Shown here one piece after another: positions 7,714 to 15,279 of a stretch of DNA of 15,279 nt. Both the position numbers and the translations under genes were made by a program. Under the pieces are notes generated by a model. It worked only from the letters and a program-made list of their open reading frames with translations, was not told where the DNA came from and made no database searches. The DNA is from Desulfuromonas sp. (GTDB lineage Bacteria; Desulfobacterota; Desulfuromonadia; Desulfuromonadales; SZUA-401): positions 1 to 15,279 of the forward strand of contig PKUI01000105.1 of the NCBI GenBank assembly GCA_002869605.1, given 5' to 3'. Within the stretch, counting starts at the first letter, position 1, and each line of letters begins with the position of its first letter.

Positions 7714-9431
7714 GGTAGCTCCTCGATCTTTTGTTGCAGGGGGACGTTCTCAGGGTCGAGTGCCAGTGACTTCTGGAAGTAATAGCGGGCTTTTTCGAAT
7801 TCGTTCAGGGTCCGATAAACATCCCCGATATGTTCAAAAGATATCGGGTCATCGGGGACATCTTTCAGAGCGAACTTTAACTTTTCAAGCGCCTCGGGAT
7901 AGCGCCCCAAACGGTATAGCACCCACCCGAGCGTATCATAAATATGACCAGCCTCGTTCAACTCAAGGGCACGCAGCGCCAGCGTTAAAGCTTCATCGAG
8001 ATGGATGCCGTCTTCAGCATACTGGTAGGCGATAAAATTCATCGCATCGGCGTGATAAGGGTCGAGCTCGAGAATTTCCTGCATAGCCTTGCGGGCAGCC
8101 TCACGCATACCGATTTTCTGCAGCAACACGCCCTTTTGGTAGAGAATGCGCGTATTCCCCTGGAAGCGTTGTTCACCCTGTTGGAAAAGCTGCAAAGCCT
8201 CATTCGTATAGCCACCGTCACCGGCAAGTGAGGTCATTAACAGGAACTGGTCTACGGTAAGACGAGGATCGTCAAGAAGGAGCGTCAGGACCTTGAATGA
8301 CTGCTCTGTCTCATCGAGCATGCTATAGAGATAGGACGCGTGCACGCATGCGTCAGGGAAAAGTTCGGAGGTTTTGGGTATTTGCAGAAATTCGCGCAGC
8401 GCCTCATAGGGCTGGGCGGTATTTTCATAGACGTTACCCAGATAATAACGGATTTTATCACGTTCTTCCGTAAGGCTCAGCAGATGCTCAAAACTGCGCG
8501 CAGCCGAAGACCATTGCTCCCGTTCCATCTGCAGCAAACCGTACTTTCGCAGGGCTTCCTGGTCGTCCGGATTGTCGGCTAACAAACTTTCAAGTTCGCG
8601 CAGAGCTTCTGTATAACGCTCAAGACTCAGTAAAACCTGAACCACACGGTGCCTAAGCCCTGGTTCGTCAGGACGCTGTTGCAGCCCCGCCCTGTAAACT
8701 GCAAGCGCCTTTTCCTGATCTCCTTCTTGCTGGCGTTTTTCGTAAAGTCTTCCCCACTCGAAATAAACCGCCAACAACGAGGGTTGCAAATCGACAACCT
8801 TGCGATAAGCCTGCTCGGCGGATACGCTCAGATCGATCTGGGCATACAACCGCGCAAGTGCATAATAGGCACGAAAAGAGTCATCATGCTTGGCGATGTA
8901 CCCCTTTATCGTTTCGATCCCCTCGATGTTTTCACCCTGGCGAGCCAGGGCCTGAACCAACAACAGGACCGGGTCGACATCCTCCGGGAGCAATTGCACC
9001 AGTATGCGAAAATGTTTAATCGCTTCTACATTGCGTTTCTTCTCGAAGAGCACTTCTCCGAGCAATCTACGCGCTTGGACTGACCCCGGATCATCGATCA
9101 AAACATCTTCCAGGGCTCGTATCGCCTCTTCATCCCGCTGCAGCTGCAAATAGATTTCCGCCAGGTAAAGGCGCAAGAGAGGCGTTTCGGCGTCATAGCT
9201 CAGGGCTTTCTGTAACGCCTCCTCGACCCCCTTGAGATCTCCATAGTTATGCCGTAAAACAGCCAGGCTGAAATAGTAGTAGGCCTTGGCGTTGGCGTCG
9301 TCAAGGCGACTTTCGTACTCAAGGAGTGATGGTTTCTGGTGCTCACCAACGGGCGAAGCAGACATGAGTACACACCCGCCACACAGCAGAAGCATCATCA
9401 CAGCAAAGCAGAATCGAAGCGTCCTCTTCAC
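7710..9431 (-). CDS. TPR-repeat lipoprotein
   Basis: Starting from the GTG at 9431 the protein has 573 residues: a signal peptide (M-K-R-T-L-R-F then a hydrophobic run) with lipobox C-G-G-C and lipidated Cys20, followed by tetratricopeptide repeats along almost the whole chain. Clear repeat units carry the A-x-x-x-L-x-K-A-L and D-P pattern, for example G-V-E-E-A-L-Q-K-A-L, E-A-I-K-H-F-R-I-L-V-Q-L-L-P-E-D, E-A-R-K-A-M-Q-E-I-L-E-L-D-P and K-A-R-Y-Y-F-Q-K-S-L-A-L-D-P near the end; about a dozen or more repeats are likely. It is a scaffold for protein-protein contacts at the periplasmic side of the inner or outer membrane. The upstream in-frame extension to 9512 is rejected because the signal peptide and AAAGGA place the start at 9431. 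It heads the four-gene minus-strand unit. Its partner is unknown. Confidence 0.85.
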   Translation of the reverse strand: MKRTLRFCFAVMMLLLCGGCVLMSASPVGEHQKPSLLEYESRLDDANAKAYYYFSLAVLRHNYGDLKGVEEALQKALSYDAETPLLRLYLAEIYLQLQRDEEAIRALEDVLIDDPGSVQARRLLGEVLFEKKRNVEAIKHFRILVQLLPEDVDPVLLLVQALARQGENIEGIETIKGYIAKHDDSFRAYYALARLYAQIDLSVSAEQAYRKVVDLQPSLLAVYFEWGRLYEKRQQEGDQEKALAVYRAGLQQRPDEPGLRHRVVQVLLSLERYTEALRELESLLADNPDDQEALRKYGLLQMEREQWSSAARSFEHLLSLTEERDKIRYYLGNVYENTAQPYEALREFLQIPKTSELFPDACVHASYLYSMLDETEQSFKVLTLLLDDPRLTVDQFLLMTSLAGDGGYTNEALQLFQQGEQRFQGNTRILYQKGVLLQKIGMREAARKAMQEILELDPYHADAMNFIAYQYAEDGIHLDEALTLALRALELNEAGHIYDTLGWVLYRLGRYPEALEKLKFALKDVPDDPISFEHIGDVYRTLNEFEKARYYFQKSLALDPENVPLQQKIEELP

Positions 9432-9439
9432 ACCCTTAA

Positions 9440-9445
9440 TCCTTT
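9440..9445 (-). promoter_or_regulatory. Ribosome-binding site of the TPR lipoprotein gene
   Basis: AAAGGA on the minus strand ends 8 nt before the GTG at 9431 and supports that start, which puts the signal peptide at the very N-terminus. Confidence 0.6.
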
Positions 9446-9483
9446 GTAAGGTCTTGATAAGACATGCATTAAACAGGCTTCGC

Positions 9484-9512
9484 AAGCTATCACAGCACTG
9501 CAATGGGGTCAA
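9484..9512 (-). promoter_or_regulatory. Candidate promoter of the TPR-LolB-SBP-permease unit
   Basis: On the minus strand TTGACC (9507-9512) is followed after 17 bp by TAGCTT (9484-9489). The -35 is good and the -10 poor (3 of 6). The predicted start would be about 46 nt before the GTG. It lies back-to-back with the plus-strand promoter at 9536-9563. Confidence 0.35.
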
Positions 9513-9535
9513 ACGCTTTGTGTTTCAACGTGCGC

Positions 9536-9563
9536 TTTACACTGCTGGATTGTCTGATAAAAT
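9536..9563 (+). promoter_or_regulatory. Promoter of the kinase-SLC5 phosphatase operon
   Basis: TTTACA (9536-9541) and TAAAAT (9558-9563), each 5 of 6 to consensus, are 16 bp apart, and the -10 has an extended TGA element directly upstream. Transcription would start near 9570, leaving about 25 nt before the kinase ATG, which includes the GGAGGT ribosome-binding site. Confidence 0.65.
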
Positions 9564-9584
9564 TCACAATAATATTAGCATGTT

Positions 9585-9590
9585 GGAGGT
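9585..9590 (+). promoter_or_regulatory. Ribosome-binding site of the kinase fusion gene
   Basis: GGAGGT lies 4 nt before the ATG at 9595 and falls inside the longer open frame to 9286. It therefore selects 9595 and removes an apparent overlap with the TPR gene. Confidence 0.7.
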
Positions 9591-9594
9591 TCAC

Positions 9595-11169
9595 ATGCCG
9601 TCTAAAGGACTCTACCAAGCCCTTCTCGACCCCACATGTTATCCAGAACGACCAAGACGTGTGTTTGCACGTGACACGCACATATCGCGTCTCTACTTTA
9701 CCCCACGCCACGTCTACAAGCTGAAAAAACCCGTCGATTTTGGTTTCCTTGACTTTACGTCTCTTGATCGACGACGTTTTTTCTGCGATGAAGAAAACCG
9801 ACTCAACAGCCATTTTGCTCCGGACACCTACCTCGGCACTGTCCCCGTACGCGTTATGGATAAACACGTTGCCGTCGGAGGCGAGCATGGCAAGATCGTT
9901 GATTATGCCGTCAAGATGCGCAGACTCCCCCAAGCGCAAATGCTTGATCGGAAAATCCGCAGGCATTCACCAGAACTTAGACATGATATTGAGCGTCTGG
10001 TGCCAACGCTCAATAGAATGTTCGGAACGTTTTCGGAAGTCACCGTCAGCGAGGAGGAGCTCTTTCACCGTCTTGCGTACAATTGCGAAGAGAACCTCTC
10101 ACAGACCCGTGAATTCATCCCTACCCTGCTCGCAGAAAGGGCCTGGCAGCAACTTGAAAGCTATACACACAATACACTCTCTCCAGATGGGCTAAAAAAT
10201 CGGTTTTTAGCTCGAGCCAAGGCCGGATATTTCAGAGAAGGCCATGGTGATCTGCACAGCGAACACATCTGTATTACCTCACCGATCCGCATCTACGACT
10301 GCATCGAGTTCAACCTTCGCTTCAGAATAAACGATCTACTCTCGGAACTCGCATTCCTGTTGATGGACCTCGATTTTCGTTGCCGGCGCGATCTATCCCA
10401 ACAGCTATTAAACGGTTGCAGTGAGCAGTTCGAGGTGTTCAACGACGGGGAAACCCTAAATTTCTACCGCATCTACCGTGCCTGGGTACGCGGTAAGGTC
10501 GCAGCCCTGACCTCCAAAGATCTGCACACGGATGAGCAAAAACGTGCCGCTGCTTCCGTTACGGCACAGCAATATTTTGCCCTGGCGTTAGGCTATCTGT
10601 GCAGGCCATTTCTGACGATCACCTGTGGATTGATGGGCAGCGGAAAATCACTGTTTGCACAATCCCTGGCAAGAGTCACCAACGCAACTGTTATCCGCTC
10701 TGACGAAGTCAGAAAAGTCATTCACGGGCGGCCCTTGGACGAGCATGATCACTCCGACTACGGTGAAGGACTCTATGCGGCAAACTTTACTGATCGGACT
10801 TATATGTCAATGTTGGAGCAAGCAGAGGAGGCTCTCAGACAAGGGAACAGCGTCATCGTCGATGCCTCCTTTGGACACAGACAGTACCGTGAACAATTTG
10901 CACTGCTGTCGAAAAGGCTTGGAACCCCATTTCTCAAAGTATGGTTTGACGCACCACACACAACGCTGCACAAACGCCTCGAGTTACGTTCTCGAATCAA
11001 CGCAGATGTATCAGACGGTCGAGGAGAGCTTTTGGATGCCCAGAAAAACAGCTTCGATTACCCCAAAGACGATGATATCATTGAAAAGATCGACAGTGAG
11101 AAAGAAGTCGACTATAATGTACAACTCGTTCTAAGCCGCATTCTCACCGACCACGGATGGCAGCCATGA
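9595..11169 (+). CDS. APH-like phosphotransferase fused to a P-loop kinase domain
   Basis: The 524-residue protein joins two nucleotide-using domains. The N-terminal part (about 30-330) resembles aminoglycoside-phosphotransferase/COG2187 proteins: the Brenner-type motif H217-G-D-L-H-S-E-H replaces the usual HGDLHxxN, and D235-C-I-E-F-N follows where the metal-binding D lies. The C-terminal part (about 340-520) is a COG0645-type P-loop kinase with Walker A G345-L-M-G-S-G-K-S352, R-S-D-E-V-R-K after the next strand, V-I-V-D-A-S-F as the Walker B-like strand, and an arginine-rich lid (H-K-R-L-E-L-R-S-R). The fusion is recurrent and usually called a bifunctional APH/ATP-binding protein; its substrate is unknown and it should not be read as a resistance gene. 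The stop overlaps the next ATG (ATGA), so it is translationally coupled to the membrane sensor genes. Confidence 0.85.
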   Translation: MPSKGLYQALLDPTCYPERPRRVFARDTHISRLYFTPRHVYKLKKPVDFGFLDFTSLDRRRFFCDEENRLNSHFAPDTYLGTVPVRVMDKHVAVGGEHGKIVDYAVKMRRLPQAQMLDRKIRRHSPELRHDIERLVPTLNRMFGTFSEVTVSEEELFHRLAYNCEENLSQTREFIPTLLAERAWQQLESYTHNTLSPDGLKNRFLARAKAGYFREGHGDLHSEHICITSPIRIYDCIEFNLRFRINDLLSELAFLLMDLDFRCRRDLSQQLLNGCSEQFEVFNDGETLNFYRIYRAWVRGKVAALTSKDLHTDEQKRAAASVTAQQYFALALGYLCRPFLTITCGLMGSGKSLFAQSLARVTNATVIRSDEVRKVIHGRPLDEHDHSDYGEGLYAANFTDRTYMSMLEQAEEALRQGNSVIVDASFGHRQYREQFALLSKRLGTPFLKVWFDAPHTTLHKRLELRSRINADVSDGRGELLDAQKNSFDYPKDDDIIEKIDSEKEVDYNVQLVLSRILTDHGWQP

Positions 11170-11405
11170 AAACGAGTCGTATTTTTAAAATGCGTGAAGC
11201 CTGGGTTGCATGTTTCCTGCTCGGTGTGGTCATGCTCAATTATCCCTTCTTGGAGATTTTCAACAAGAATATTCTGTTGTTTAGCATTCCCTTGCCGGTT
11301 CTCTACCTGATGATCGGCTGGCCCATCTCCATCGGTGTCATCTACCTGTTTACTCGACACTTCAAATTCAAAGACGAAATTAGCACGACAGGGGAGCAAG
11401 ACTAG
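11166..11405 (+). CDS. Small two-helix membrane protein preceding an SLC5-type sensor
   Basis: The 79-residue protein has a short basic N-terminus and two hydrophobic segments, about residues 12-33 (A-W-V-A-C-F-L-L-G-V-V-M-L-N-Y-P) and 42-64 (I-P-L-P-V-L-Y-L-M-I-G-W-P), then a charged tail. The W-P pair in the second helix and the position directly before a sodium:solute-symporter-type gene recall the small DUF-class proteins next to SSS transporters and the small CbrX protein encoded before CbrA in pseudomonads. It probably assembles with or assists insertion of the sensor, which is inference. The start at 11166 makes an ATGA overlap with the kinase gene; its stop TAG is directly followed by the next ATG at 11406 with no gap. 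This is strong evidence for coupled, stoichiometric synthesis. Confidence 0.75.
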   Translation: MKTSRIFKMREAWVACFLLGVVMLNYPFLEIFNKNILLFSIPLPVLYLMIGWPISIGVIYLFTRHFKFKDEISTTGEQD

Positions 11406-14400
11406 ATGATCCCTGTCAGCCAGCTTGCCCTGATCACGCTTCTCTACTTTGCACTTTTGTTTGCCGTGGCCTACTGGGCGGACAGAAGACGTGCCGCCGG
11501 TCGAAGCCTGACACAGAATTCATCGATCTACACCCTCTCTCTAGCCGTTTACATGACCTCCTGGACGTTCTACGGCAGCGTAGGACGCGCGGCAACGAGC
11601 GGTCTCGACTTCCTGCCGGTGTACCTGGGACCAACCCTGATTATATTTACATGGGGATTTTTATTACGCAAAATCGTACGTGTTACGAGAGAGCAGAACA
11701 TCGTCAGCATCGCCGACTTTATCTCCAGCCGTTACGGCAAATCAACGTCTCTCGGTGCCATTGTAACGATCTTCGCCGTATTCGGAATCATGCCCTACAT
11801 TGCCCTGCAGTTAAAGGCAGTATCCCAGACCTTTGACCTGCTATCCGGGAACTCCCTACTCCAACGGACCGAAGAGTTTACTGCGGTGACCCATCTCCCC
11901 TTCTCTCTCGACACGGCCCTGCTGAGCGCATTAACCCTTGGCATTTTCGGCGTTCTCTTCGGAGCGCGCCATCTCGACACCAGCGAACGACACGAAGGGC
12001 TGGTCGCCGCGATCGCCTTCGAATCTCTGGTCAAGCTGTGTGCCTTCGTCGTCGCCGGTATCTTTGTGACCTATGGCCTTTATGACGGCTTCGGAGACAT
12101 CTTCACCCGCTTCAACGAAACGTTTCCCGACCGCAGTTCGCTACTACTCTTCAATACCCAACATACCCCCTATACAGAGTGGTTTACCCTGACATTTATC
12201 TCCATGATGGCGTTTATGCTTTTGCCCCGCCAGTTCCATATCATGGTGATCGAAAACAGCGATGAAAGCCATATCCGTAAAGCTATGTGGCAATTTCCAA
12301 GCTACATGTTTCTGATCAACCTGTTTGTCATCCCAATTGCCCTGGGGGGACTAATTTATTACAACGGCGACACAAGCTCGGCCGATTATTTCATGCTGCA
12401 ACTCCCCCTCGAAACGGGTCATCCCTGGTTAAGCATCCTGGTATTTATCGGCGGTTTCTCGGCTTCTGCCGGCATGGTCATGGTCTCTTCGGTGGCGTTG
12501 GCCACCATGATCCTCAACCACCTGTTTATCCCTTTGATGCTGCGTTTCTGGCAGGAATTACCGAACATCTCAGGGCTACTGATCAACATCAAGCGTGCCT
12601 CGATCATGGCCGTCATACTGCTCGGTTATTTTTACTTTCGCGTCATCGGCGACTCCTATGCACTGGTCAATATCGGATTGATTTCGTTCATCGCCGCGAC
12701 ACAGTTCGCCACGGCGATGATCGGCGGGCTTTACTGGCGCAAAGCCAATCGCATCGGCGCCACGGTCGGCCTGCTGTTTGGCTTTATCATCTGGGCCATC
12801 ACCCTGCTGATCCCTTCTTTTGTGCGCTCGGGGTGGATGTCAGAACGCATCCTGGATGAGGGTCTATTTGGGATCACGCTGCTACGCCCACTGGAGCTTT
12901 TCGGACTCAGTGGCTTCGACATCTGGACCCATGCCCTGTTCTGGACCTTGTTCTTCAACATCGGTGCATTCATAGCCATATCCATCGTTACCCTCGGTGA
13001 CGAAATTGAAAAAGAACAAGCGCGAAAATTTGTCGACGTCTTTGAACCCTTCAGCCGCGCCGAAAGTCGTAAACGTATCAGCAAGGCTCCAACAATCATC
13101 GAATTCGTTGAACTGATGGCCAAGTTCATCGGCGACAAACAGGCACACGCGGCAATCTCAGGGTACCTCAAAGACAGCGAGATAGATGAACGCGGAAGTC
13201 TCTCGGAATATGAGCTTCCCAGTCTCAAGCGTTTTACGGAACGGACCCTTGCCGGCTCCGTCGGTGCCGCACCGGCCAGGATCATTATCGAAAATTATCT
13301 GGCGGCACGTGGTAGCGAAATGGAGGATGTCTTCGACATTTTCGGTTCAGTGACCATCAGCCGCACCTCAAGTCGCGAACAACTCGGCGTTCTTTTTGAA
13401 GCGGCCCATACTATCGCCAGCACCTCAAACTGCCAGCAAGCCTTTGACAAAATACTTGAGCTGATGCAACGCCAATTCAAATTCGATCTGTGTGTCATCC
13501 GTATGCTCGACGAACAGAGCAACACCCTCACCGTACGCAGTCGCAAAGGGATTGTCTCACAACATTTCGGCAACGCTGAACGAGACCTCGACATGGATAC
13601 CTATATCGGGGAGTGTTTCCTGACGGTCACCTCTAAAGTGGTGAACGACACCGAATTCATGGACCGCCCGAAACTGATCGAGGTCATCCAGCACGAAGGC
13701 ATCAAGTCCTTCGCCCATGCCCCAATAGTCATTGAGGGTGAAGCCATCGGCGTCCTGAGTGCCTTTTCAAGGTCTGTCAGAGGGATATTCACCAAGGAGT
13801 TCGTCGAACTCTTACAGAGCCTCGCTGGCCAGATAGGCGTGGCCTGGCGGAACGAACAACAGACCCAACAGTTAATTGATGTGCGCAGCCGTGAACGTGA
13901 GCTAGAGATTGCCCAGAACATTCAGAAGAGCCTATTGCCAGAGCACTTCCCGCTGATCCCCGGCGTTACCTTGGCAGGACGCTGCATGACCGCCAAACAG
14001 GTGGGGGGCGACTATTACGACTTTCTGCCACGCGAAGGGGACCACTTTGACCTGTTCATTGCCGACGTTTCCGGACATGACATTGGAGCAGCTCTGCTAA
14101 TGGCAGAGACGCGAACGTTTATCCGTTCACAGGCCCATCGCAAAATCGACCCCAACGACATGATGGACGAGGTCAACCACTTCTTCCTGCACGACCTGTC
14201 ACAGTCCGAACTGTTTATCACCATGTTCTACGTTAACTACAACTACGGCACCAAACTTCTCAAATATTCAAGCGCCGGGCATAACCGTCCGCTGCTCTGG
14301 GACAACAAATACCGCGTTGTTGTCTCCCTTGACGCGGAAGGTTTGATTTTCGGCGTCAAGAAAAACGTCAACTTTGAAATGAAACAGCGCCACCTGAACC

Positions 14401-14624
14401 CCGGAGATGTTCTTCTACTCTATACCGATGGGGTTACTGAAGCCGAAAACTCCAACGGGGAATTCTTCGGTGAAGAACGCTTGATGTCACTCCTACAAGA
14501 AAATCACCTGCTCAGTGTCGATGAACTGGTAGAGATGCTTTTCCATCAACTGCGAATCTTTACGGGATCATCAAATTTCAACGACGATGTCACCGTGTTG
14601 ATTCTTAAGACAGACATAGAGTGA
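11406..14624 (+). CDS. SLC5-STAC-GAF-PP2C sensor phosphatase (CbrA-like transporter domain with SpoIIE/RsbU output)
   Basis: The 1072-residue protein has four parts. Residues 1 to about 530 form a sodium:solute symporter (SLC5) module with about 12-13 hydrophobic helices. It carries the Y-M-T-S-W-T-F-Y-G-S-V-G segment and the S-S-V-A-L-A-T-M-I-L-N-H helix seen in CbrA-type sensors. Residues about 560-655 resemble the STAC linker (A616-G-S-V-G-A-A-P-A-R). Residues about 660-820 look like a GAF domain. After a helical linker ending in E-L-E-I-A-Q-N-I-Q-K-S-L-L-P comes a SpoIIE/RsbU-type PP2C phosphatase. Its metal-site residues are Asp869 (G-G-D-Y-Y-D-F), Asp887 (D-V-S-G-H-D), Asp1008 (T-D-G-V-T-E) and Asp1060/Asp1061 (N-D-D-V-T-V). 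It should sense or transport a solute at the inner membrane and dephosphorylate the STAS protein encoded next. GGGGAG lies 9 nt before the ATG. There is no histidine kinase domain. The ligand is unknown. Confidence 0.92.
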   Translation: MIPVSQLALITLLYFALLFAVAYWADRRRAAGRSLTQNSSIYTLSLAVYMTSWTFYGSVGRAATSGLDFLPVYLGPTLIIFTWGFLLRKIVRVTREQNIVSIADFISSRYGKSTSLGAIVTIFAVFGIMPYIALQLKAVSQTFDLLSGNSLLQRTEEFTAVTHLPFSLDTALLSALTLGIFGVLFGARHLDTSERHEGLVAAIAFESLVKLCAFVVAGIFVTYGLYDGFGDIFTRFNETFPDRSSLLLFNTQHTPYTEWFTLTFISMMAFMLLPRQFHIMVIENSDESHIRKAMWQFPSYMFLINLFVIPIALGGLIYYNGDTSSADYFMLQLPLETGHPWLSILVFIGGFSASAGMVMVSSVALATMILNHLFIPLMLRFWQELPNISGLLINIKRASIMAVILLGYFYFRVIGDSYALVNIGLISFIAATQFATAMIGGLYWRKANRIGATVGLLFGFIIWAITLLIPSFVRSGWMSERILDEGLFGITLLRPLELFGLSGFDIWTHALFWTLFFNIGAFIAISIVTLGDEIEKEQARKFVDVFEPFSRAESRKRISKAPTIIEFVELMAKFIGDKQAHAAISGYLKDSEIDERGSLSEYELPSLKRFTERTLAGSVGAAPARIIIENYLAARGSEMEDVFDIFGSVTISRTSSREQLGVLFEAAHTIASTSNCQQAFDKILELMQRQFKFDLCVIRMLDEQSNTLTVRSRKGIVSQHFGNAERDLDMDTYIGECFLTVTSKVVNDTEFMDRPKLIEVIQHEGIKSFAHAPIVIEGEAIGVLSAFSRSVRGIFTKEFVELLQSLAGQIGVAWRNEQQTQQLIDVRSRERELEIAQNIQKSLLPEHFPLIPGVTLAGRCMTAKQVGGDYYDFLPREGDHFDLFIADVSGHDIGAALLMAETRTFIRSQAHRKIDPNDMMDEVNHFFLHDLSQSELFITMFYVNYNYGTKLLKYSSAGHNRPLLWDNKYRVVVSLDAEGLIFGVKKNVNFEMKQRHLNPGDVLLLYTDGVTEAENSNGEFFGEERLMSLLQENHLLSVDELVEMLFHQLRIFTGSSNFNDDVTVLILKTDIE

Positions 14625-14731
14625 GCCCAAAATGACGTAGAAAGGTCAGGAAAAGTAACCTGGGTATGCTATTCTATTCAGGCATCCATTAAAGGCACAA
14701 ACATCAACATATACGCACCAATTTGCGATCG

Positions 14732-14737
14732 AGGAGG
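14732..14737 (+). promoter_or_regulatory. Ribosome-binding site selecting the GTG start of the STAS gene
   Basis: A perfect AGGAGG lies 9 nt before GTG 14747. A longer in-frame opening at 14723 would start with TTG upstream of this site and is therefore rejected. Confidence 0.85.
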
Positions 14738-14746
14738 AACTTTACA

Positions 14747-15082
14747 GTGGTTATCCATATTCATGAAAAACCCGGGGCGACACTGCTGGAAATTGGCGAA
14801 GAGAGACTTGATGCCCACAACAGCGGCGACTTGAAAAATGAGATGTTATCCCTTTTTGAAGACGGCAAAAACCAATTGGTAATTGACCTAAAGGAAGTTC
14901 GTTTCATCGACTCCTCAGGCCTCGGAGCACTGGTCTCCGGCTACAAGAACGCCAGTGCCCGCAATGGCAACCTCAAGCTCTGTGCACTCCAACCACAGGT
15001 TAAATCAATGTTCGAGCTCACCCGATTACACCGAGTCTTTGAAATTTATCCGGGAGCAGATGAAGCACTGGCAAGTTTTTAA
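14747..15082 (+). CDS. STAS-domain anti-sigma factor antagonist (SpoIIAA/RsbV type)
   Basis: The 111-residue protein is a single STAS domain of normal length. It has the paired-strand opening (T-L-L-E-I-G-E-E-R-L-D-A) and the signature F-I-D-S-S-G-L-G-A-L-V, in which Ser57 is the position phosphorylated in SpoIIAA/RsbV. The later L-K-L-C-A-L-Q-P-Q-V-K-S-M-F-E-L-T-R-L segment is also typical. In the known pathway the unphosphorylated form binds the anti-sigma kinase and frees its target, the kinase inactivates it by serine phosphorylation, and a PP2C phosphatase restores it. Both partner enzymes are encoded on either side (PP2C 122 bp upstream, kinase 24 bp downstream). The GTG start is chosen for the ribosome-binding site. 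Confidence 0.93.
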   Translation: MVIHIHEKPGATLLEIGEERLDAHNSGDLKNEMLSLFEDGKNQLVIDLKEVRFIDSSGLGALVSGYKNASARNGNLKLCALQPQVKSMFELTRLHRVFEIYPGADEALASF

Positions 15083-15106
15083 TATTGAAAGCCACCAGGA
15101 CCCGGA

Positions 15107-15279
15107 ATGAAAAACGTTGAAGTTGAAATCAAGGTTCCCTACGAAACCCGCTATCTCTCCCTGATCGGAAAGATTGGTGAGGATGTGGTGCGCACGCTCA
15201 GGCGTCTGAGGGGGGATCGGGAAGAACTGGCCTACCAGGTGAATCTGGTTTTAACCGAGGCGATTGCCAACGTGATTCA
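15107..15279 (+). CDS. Anti-sigma-factor-type serine kinase (RsbW/SpoIIAB-like), 5' part only
   Basis: Only the first 57 codons are inside the window and the frame is still open at the edge. The opening (M-K-N-V-E-V-E-I-K-V-P ... Y-L-S-L-I-G-K-I-G-E) and the helix V-N-L-V-L-T-E-A-I-A-N-V-I match the start of GHKL-type serine kinases. The Glu and Asn of E-A-I-A-N would be the N-box that holds the metal and ATP. AGGA lies 6 nt before the ATG, and the gene follows the STAS gene by 24 bp. It should phosphorylate the STAS protein and hold an unknown target. The G1/G2 ATP boxes lie outside the window, so activity cannot be judged. Confidence 0.85.
   Translation, partial: MKNVEVEIKVPYETRYLSLIGKIGEDVVRTLRRLRGDREELAYQVNLVLTEAIANVI

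Follow-up and report, generated by a model that had tools for sequence, protein, structure and literature searches.

The 15,279-bp stretch of Desulfuromonas sp. analysed here (contig PKUI01000105.1 of assembly GCA_002869605.1; hereafter, the window) encodes, towards its 3' end, a sensor phosphatase named SLC5-PP2C, in which an SLC5 transporter fold, a STAC domain, and a GAF domain precede a SpoIIE/RsbU-type PP2C phosphatase in a single chain. It is followed by genes for a STAS anti-sigma-antagonist-type protein and an RsbW-like kinase (Table 1). The SLC5-PP2C/STAS/RsbW module is a core trait of a single bacterial class, the Geobacter/Desulfuromonas group, and the SLC5-PP2C protein is probably the usual input arm of a partner switch shared across that class. 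Two known kinds of system, transporter-fused receptors and partner switches, are joined in this module, which is real and well conserved and represents a putative regulator widespread among sediment bacteria that respire metals and sulfur.

The distribution of the module was assessed in 194 genomes from the class to which Geothermobacter (G001) belongs, which also includes the tractable Geobacter; 2qyb hints that the module may occur in Geobacter sulfurreducens. The SLC5-PP2C query matched 172 of them at E 1e-100, of which 142 were tallied among the matches listed and 30 others were searched again; the alignment reached only residue 944 in G041 and began at residue 240 in G189. Both the SLC5 front end and PP2C were present in 166 genomes (157 in one piece and 9 in several). 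In the 30 re-searched genomes, the match extended through PP2C in one piece in 15 cases, in two pieces on one contig in 4, and in pieces on different contigs in 5; the match ended at residues 818-819 in G151, G174, G182, and G188, indicating another output, and G085 and G158 were not assigned. STAS was matched in 180 genomes at E 1e-20; for RsbW, 184 genomes had a match at E 1e-3, and in 179 of these it reached 1e-20 or better. The gene order was examined in the 109 genomes present among the matches listed for all three queries, an adjacency check suggested by an earlier, sequence-only reading of the window. SLC5-PP2C, STAS, and RsbW lie in this order on one strand in 103 of the 109, with median gaps of 125 and 43 bp; in the remaining six, at least one of the three matches is located on another contig. 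When loci were inspected individually, the STAS-RsbW pair was found downstream in 18 of the 20 with downstream DNA, eight loci being left out as truncated or devoid of PP2C.

The domain composition given in the sequence-only reading, with SLC5, STAC, GAF, and SpoIIE-type PP2C in one chain, was confirmed by the CbrA alignment, Pfam, and the predicted model. The closest solved relative of the SLC5-STAC part is CbrA (alignment of residues 4-635, E 1.3e-74); the relation is visible by sequence, and CbrA (10ed) was not among the best 50 matches in either structure listing. The chain has an SLC5 fold and then a STAC four-helix domain, which places it among the CbrA-kind SLC5-STAC transceptors. No HisKA/HATPase output was found in the window protein, whose output is the SpoIIE PP2C. 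For the GAF domain, a solved relative at 43% identity was identified. The five metal-site aspartates of PP2C (Asp869, 887, 1008, 1060, and 1061) had been named correctly and are invariant in all 48 rows of the conservation alignment (the window protein, 40 of 120 listed proteins, and 7 loci). Public database entries for the SLC5-PP2C family bear names such as SpoIIE family protein phosphatase and Na+/proline symporter.

Table 1. Features of the module and its upstream neighbourhood in the window.
Feature	Coordinates	Strand	Remark
SLC5-STAC-GAF-PP2C transceptor phosphatase, one 1072-aa chain	11406..14624	+	
SLC5/LeuT-fold transporter domain, about residues 1-530	11406..12995	+	
Lys210 codon, aligned with CbrA K196 of the Na2 site	12033..12035	+	printed alignment to CbrA
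STAC domain, about residues 562-634, four predicted helices	13089..13307	+	CbrA alignment extends to residue 635; helices 564-575, 577-588, 601-619, 621-633
GAF domain, about residues 671-817	13416..13856	+	
Single long helix 797-843 between GAF and PP2C; relatives with other outputs diverge here	13794..13934	+	DSSP of model
SpoIIE/RsbU-type PP2C domain, about residues 854-1069; Asp869, 887, 1008, 1060, 1061	13965..14612	+	
STAS anti-sigma-antagonist-type protein, 111 aa, GTG start	14747..15082	+	
Ser56, predicted phosphoacceptor, DSSG motif	14912..14914	+	by homology
RsbW-like GHKL kinase, first 57 codons, gene runs past window end	15107..15279	+	ATG at 15107
79-aa small membrane protein, two predicted helices, CbrX-like in position and predicted shape	11166..11405	+	homologue upstream in 21/22 loci
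Fused kinase gene: AAA_33 half C-terminal, aminoglycoside-phosphotransferase-like front by eye	9286..11169	+	PF13671 E 4.5e-27
Sigma-70-like promoter match TCGACA-17-TATAAT, 11/12, upstream of small gene	11090..11118	+	weak: scan 3 vs 3.6 in shuffles

The identities of the two downstream genes were likewise as first described. The STAS protein matches TIGR00377 over the cut-off and carries a DSSG motif, in which Ser56 is presumably the phosphoacceptor following SpoIIAA/RsbV numbering. The kinase gene is cut by the window end, and its 57 codons gave a Pfam match at E 0.052; its RsbW type was assigned because the encoded part is 52% identical to the full-length RsbW of locus L023 (E 9e-15). The full-length RsbW orthologues are HATPase_c_2 proteins.

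Relatives of the front end with other outputs were searched for in a phylum sample of 247 genomes, with up to three candidates scored per genome. Matches to the SLC5-PP2C query at E 1e-60 were found in 48 genomes. Among the 66 matches listed, 11 extend through the phosphatase, 25 end within residues 819-842, and 30 end at or before residue 709. The 11 phosphatase-bearing matches belong to ten genomes, all also in the class set; within the phylum sample, and among the matches listed, the PP2C output is limited to genomes of the Geobacter/Desulfuromonas class. Three loci of other Desulfobacterota (L025-L027) encode SLC5-STAC-GAF proteins with 48-49% identity over residues 7-838, followed by a histidine kinase. 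They share with the window protein the front end, GAF, and the start of the linker, and differ in the HisKA/HATPase output: the alignment holds through GAF, departs in the helix before PP2C, and changes to HisKA (Pfam for L025). According to a section of a 2025 eLife paper (PMC12143880), the coiled coil before PP2C allows the exchange of sensors and outputs, and relatives that share SLC5-STAC-GAF and diverge at this helix offer a natural test of such exchange. An SLC5-STAC front end is also present on an Azoarcus plasmid (L108:4730-8120; 44% identity over residues 26-630), where the output is GGDEF-EAL, a transporter-fused cyclic-di-GMP enzyme, and a small hairpin-like open reading frame (ORF) precedes it.

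The transport site was compared with that of CbrA, in which the side chain of K196 fills the Na2 site and is thought to render transport proton-coupled, as stated in an excerpt of PMC13022988; proton dependence of CbrA transport is also reported in part of PMC7096432. K210 of the window protein occupies the K196 position, is invariant in 48/48 rows, and is present in 11/11 SLC5-STAC proteins compared. Because of this lysine in the Na2 site, sodium flux is an unlikely driver and proton coupling appears likelier, so that the sodium gating first envisaged was not upheld. The pocket and Na2-site residues T51, W53, F69, R275, and F428 are equally invariant in the 48 rows. The CbrA pocket positions Y51, W55, F71, Y75, and F406 are retained in the window protein, and S53, A56, C74, F248, S251, and H257 are replaced by T, T, V, S, A, and R, respectively. 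These six changes make histidine improbable as the ligand. Arginine occupies the R275 position in 8 of the 11 SLC5-STAC proteins, including proteins with other outputs (His or Gln in the other 3), and therefore names no ligand. Acetate was considered as a candidate on the basis of R275 and a weak match to MctP (E 3.6e-14, well under the cut-off) and was left unsupported. In a crude test of this candidate, TIGR03458 (succinate/acetate CoA-transferase-type) was not missing where the sensor is missing, since eight of the nine sensor-less genomes described below have a match and G055 does not; the model matched 177/194 class genomes at E 1e-100 and 0/194 over its curated cut-off.

Directly upstream of SLC5-PP2C lies a small gene that the sequence-only reading did not include. 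Its ATG overlaps the stop codon of the preceding fused kinase gene, and its stop codon abuts the SLC5 ATG. The encoded protein has no Pfam match and was predicted by AlphaFold2 as a hairpin (H3-32/H43-74; mean predicted local distance difference test score (pLDDT) 68, predicted template modelling score (pTM) 0.38). A homologue was found in 21 of the 22 loci with upstream DNA, L012 being the locus without it; three of these loci (L018, L019, and L021) end before the output domain. In Pseudomonas, CbrX (about 58 aa) is encoded immediately 5' of cbrA and was found bound to the transporter domain, as described in a passage of PMC13022988. Homology to the CbrX sequence was sought among PDB sequences with phmmer and with a profile built from 19 sequences, which gave no recognisable CbrX, and a fold search with the predicted small protein gave no matches. 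The profile also matched human MCT8 (E 0.0013), which we attribute to chance similarity between membrane proteins. Upstream of the SLC5 histidine kinase of L026 there is a homologue of the small gene, none was found in L025, and small ORFs similar by eye precede a Paracoccus histidine kinase (L110) and the Azoarcus GGDEF-EAL protein. Given these occurrences, the presence of the small partner seems tied to the SLC5-STAC front end irrespective of the output domain.

The following mechanism is proposed for the module. The SLC5-STAC part, probably dimeric and in complex with the CbrX-like hairpin protein, would bind a solute and perhaps carry it along with protons. The conformation of this part and any GAF ligand would jointly set the geometry of the long helix before PP2C and thereby the phosphatase activity, a kind of control proposed for RsbU-type phosphatases. 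Active PP2C would dephosphorylate Ser56 of the adjacent STAS protein; in its unphosphorylated form, STAS would bind the RsbW-like kinase, which would release its target, and rephosphorylation of STAS by RsbW would reset the switch. In the predicted full-length model, the placement of the domains relative to each other is unsure (pTM 0.52).

Several observations weigh against a circuit dedicated to this sensor. Thirteen class genomes have STAS and RsbW and no SLC5-PP2C match at 1e-100. Nine loci (L087-L095), intact on both sides, have kept STAS-RsbW, and both the small gene and SLC5-PP2C are absent from them. In the STAS + RsbW tree (54 rows), these loci and L096 form one branch (support 98/97), so a single loss of the sensor suffices; L096, a 3-kb contig of a tenth genome (G191), was labelled sensor-less on the basis of the SLC5-PP2C search alone, and in G194 the contig ends just before STAS. 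The nine sensor-less genomes keep 2-5 other SpoIIE-domain proteins. Two further loci, L113 (3388-4191, minus strand) and L114 (8500-9219, plus strand), encode a short PP2C that lacks the transporter, STAC, and GAF, is 40-42% identical to residues 831-1070 of the window protein, and is flanked by the fused kinase gene and STAS; the same slot is thus also able to hold a bare PP2C. L010 and L028 have SLC5-PP2C with no STAS-RsbW pair downstream, and at least 7 of the 142 genomes listed (G113, G116, G039, G033, G171, G121, and G052) have additional full-length paralogues (second or third copies) that are not located near STAS-RsbW. SLC5-PP2C is not the only phosphatase able to serve the STAS-RsbW pair. 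The pair may accordingly be a shared hub for several PP2C proteins, with SLC5-PP2C as one input among them, and we consider the chances of this evenly balanced: the sensor-less genomes, the paralogues, and the occurrence of more than one SpoIIE protein in 14 of 15 genomes tested speak for it, whereas the tight linkage and order in most genomes argue for a main partner. A hub is compatible with, not opposed to, SLC5-PP2C as the usual input arm. Since the pair is usable without the SLC5 sensor and a transporter-less protein can take the PP2C slot, the complete circuit first proposed is better viewed as the input that a core switch usually receives; its three linked parts stand, and its closure does not, given the sensor-less clade that keeps STAS-RsbW and the sigma factor searches reported below. 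A decayed or chimeric assembly product in place of a functional protein would be consistent with the single internal stop seen in 5 of the 150 places listed and with the four further genomes where the match is split into two pieces on one contig, but it is refuted by the intact frames in the other 145 places and by the presence of GAF and SpoIIE in all of the best 120 of 4832 database proteins (precomputed Pfam).

The transporter half could alternatively be a mere membrane anchor, with GAF as the real sensor and no gating role for the SLC5 fold. This seems unlikely, although CbrA lacking SLC5 still activates its target (part of PMC7096432), which also tells against input through the transporter, and stimulus sensing in the CbrA family is probably cytoplasmic (an excerpt of PMC9100948). 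The GAF domain with its solved relative and the two genomes with a transporter-less PP2C in the slot point the same way. However, the pocket and Na2-site residues are conserved beyond the needs of an anchor, the CbrX-like partner is retained in nearly all loci, STAC is inserted into the transporter base in the CbrA structure (part of PMC13022988), and SLC5 modulates CbrA kinase kinetics (the same portion of PMC7096432). The proposal that the signal arises from solute or ion flux at the membrane is supported by the transporter fold and weakened by GAF, the probable cytoplasmic sensing, and the two bare phosphatases. It is improbable that the module is a standard general stress system of the SigB type that merely has an uncommon membrane sensor and in which RsbW would hold a sigma factor. 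RsbW orthologues do match the anti-sigma B models TIGR01924/PRK04069, all below the equivalog cut-offs, but sigma queries (eight same-group frames chosen by sequence motif) gave no matches in 50 module loci and recovered 8/8 of their own loci as a control. SigB/F/G sigma factors (TIGR02980) were found over the cut-off in 0/5 genomes of relatives, this cut-off being so strict that 1 of 14 control genomes passes it; the weaker matches have the sizes of RpoD-, RpoS-, RpoH-, and FliA-like proteins by our own reading of size. The gene for the RsbW target probably lies elsewhere, and a sigma factor of the SigB type is an unlikely target. For an Rsb network that acts on the primary sigma factor there is a precedent in Chlamydia, as outlined in a section of PMC4552016. 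A more far-reaching version of the input-arm reading is doubtful: the transceptor phosphatase might be the proton-coupled, ancestral environmental input of a single partner switch in the whole Geobacter/Desulfuromonas class, reading a central carbon solute and controlling, via RsbW, a major target other than SigB (the housekeeping sigma factor, RpoS, or a regulator that is not a sigma factor). If so, one transporter-shaped protein would set the global physiological state.

The sensors of well-studied partner switches are soluble or simpler, and characterised transporter-fused receptors such as CbrA, CrbS, and RpuS are histidine kinases. Pseudomonas CbrA-CbrX (SLC5-STAC-PAS-histidine kinase) resembles the module in the SLC5-STAC front end, the Na2-site lysine, and five pocket residues, and, by position and predicted shape, in the small upstream protein, for which no sequence homology to CbrX was detected; the window protein has PP2C and GAF in place of the histidine kinase and PAS, and changed pocket positions. 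With RsbU/RsbP-RsbV-RsbW and SpoIIE-SpoIIAA-SpoIIAB the module has in common PP2C, a STAS protein with DSSG, an RsbW-like kinase, and the linker helix before PP2C; it differs from them in the transporter-fold sensor, in having no adjacent sigma factor, and in the absence of SigB/F/G over the cut-off in 5/5 genomes. The Azoarcus protein is alike in the front end and unlike in its GGDEF-EAL output. No study of the module was found among the top-ranked results of the open-licence PMC literature, and none was retrieved there on SLC5 together with SpoIIE. The statement that phosphatase control by a full transporter fold is much less described was fair, with the reservation that Actinobacteria SSS proteins with GAF, PP2C_SIG, and HATPase_c domains are already mentioned in section 14 of a 2021 review (PMC7918813, in part). 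Compared by that description only, these proteins share the symporter, GAF, and PP2C and carry HATPase_c in the same chain, whereas here the kinase and STAS are separate genes.

The fused kinase gene upstream overlaps the small gene by 4 bp, and its true start is probably near 9595. Homologues lie upstream in L004, L014, and L021 and are kept in 5 of the 9 sensor-less loci; the gene is a frequent upstream neighbour and not an obligate part of the module. Promoter and terminator scans of the window gave counts no higher than chance. A second, fused kind of partner-switch protein was observed in three class genomes, as frames of about 800 aa with SpoIIE and an RsbW-type HATPase (G141:C1:817203-818198, G143:C185:76483-77505, and G156:C46:20685-21704). 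A portion of PMC2700814 mentions GSU1427, an anti-anti-sigma gene that carries a frameshift and has both phosphatase and kinase domains, which is perhaps of the same kind. At L010 (9268-9747), where SLC5-PP2C and its small upstream partner occur without STAS-RsbW, the next ORF resembles a universal stress protein by eye.

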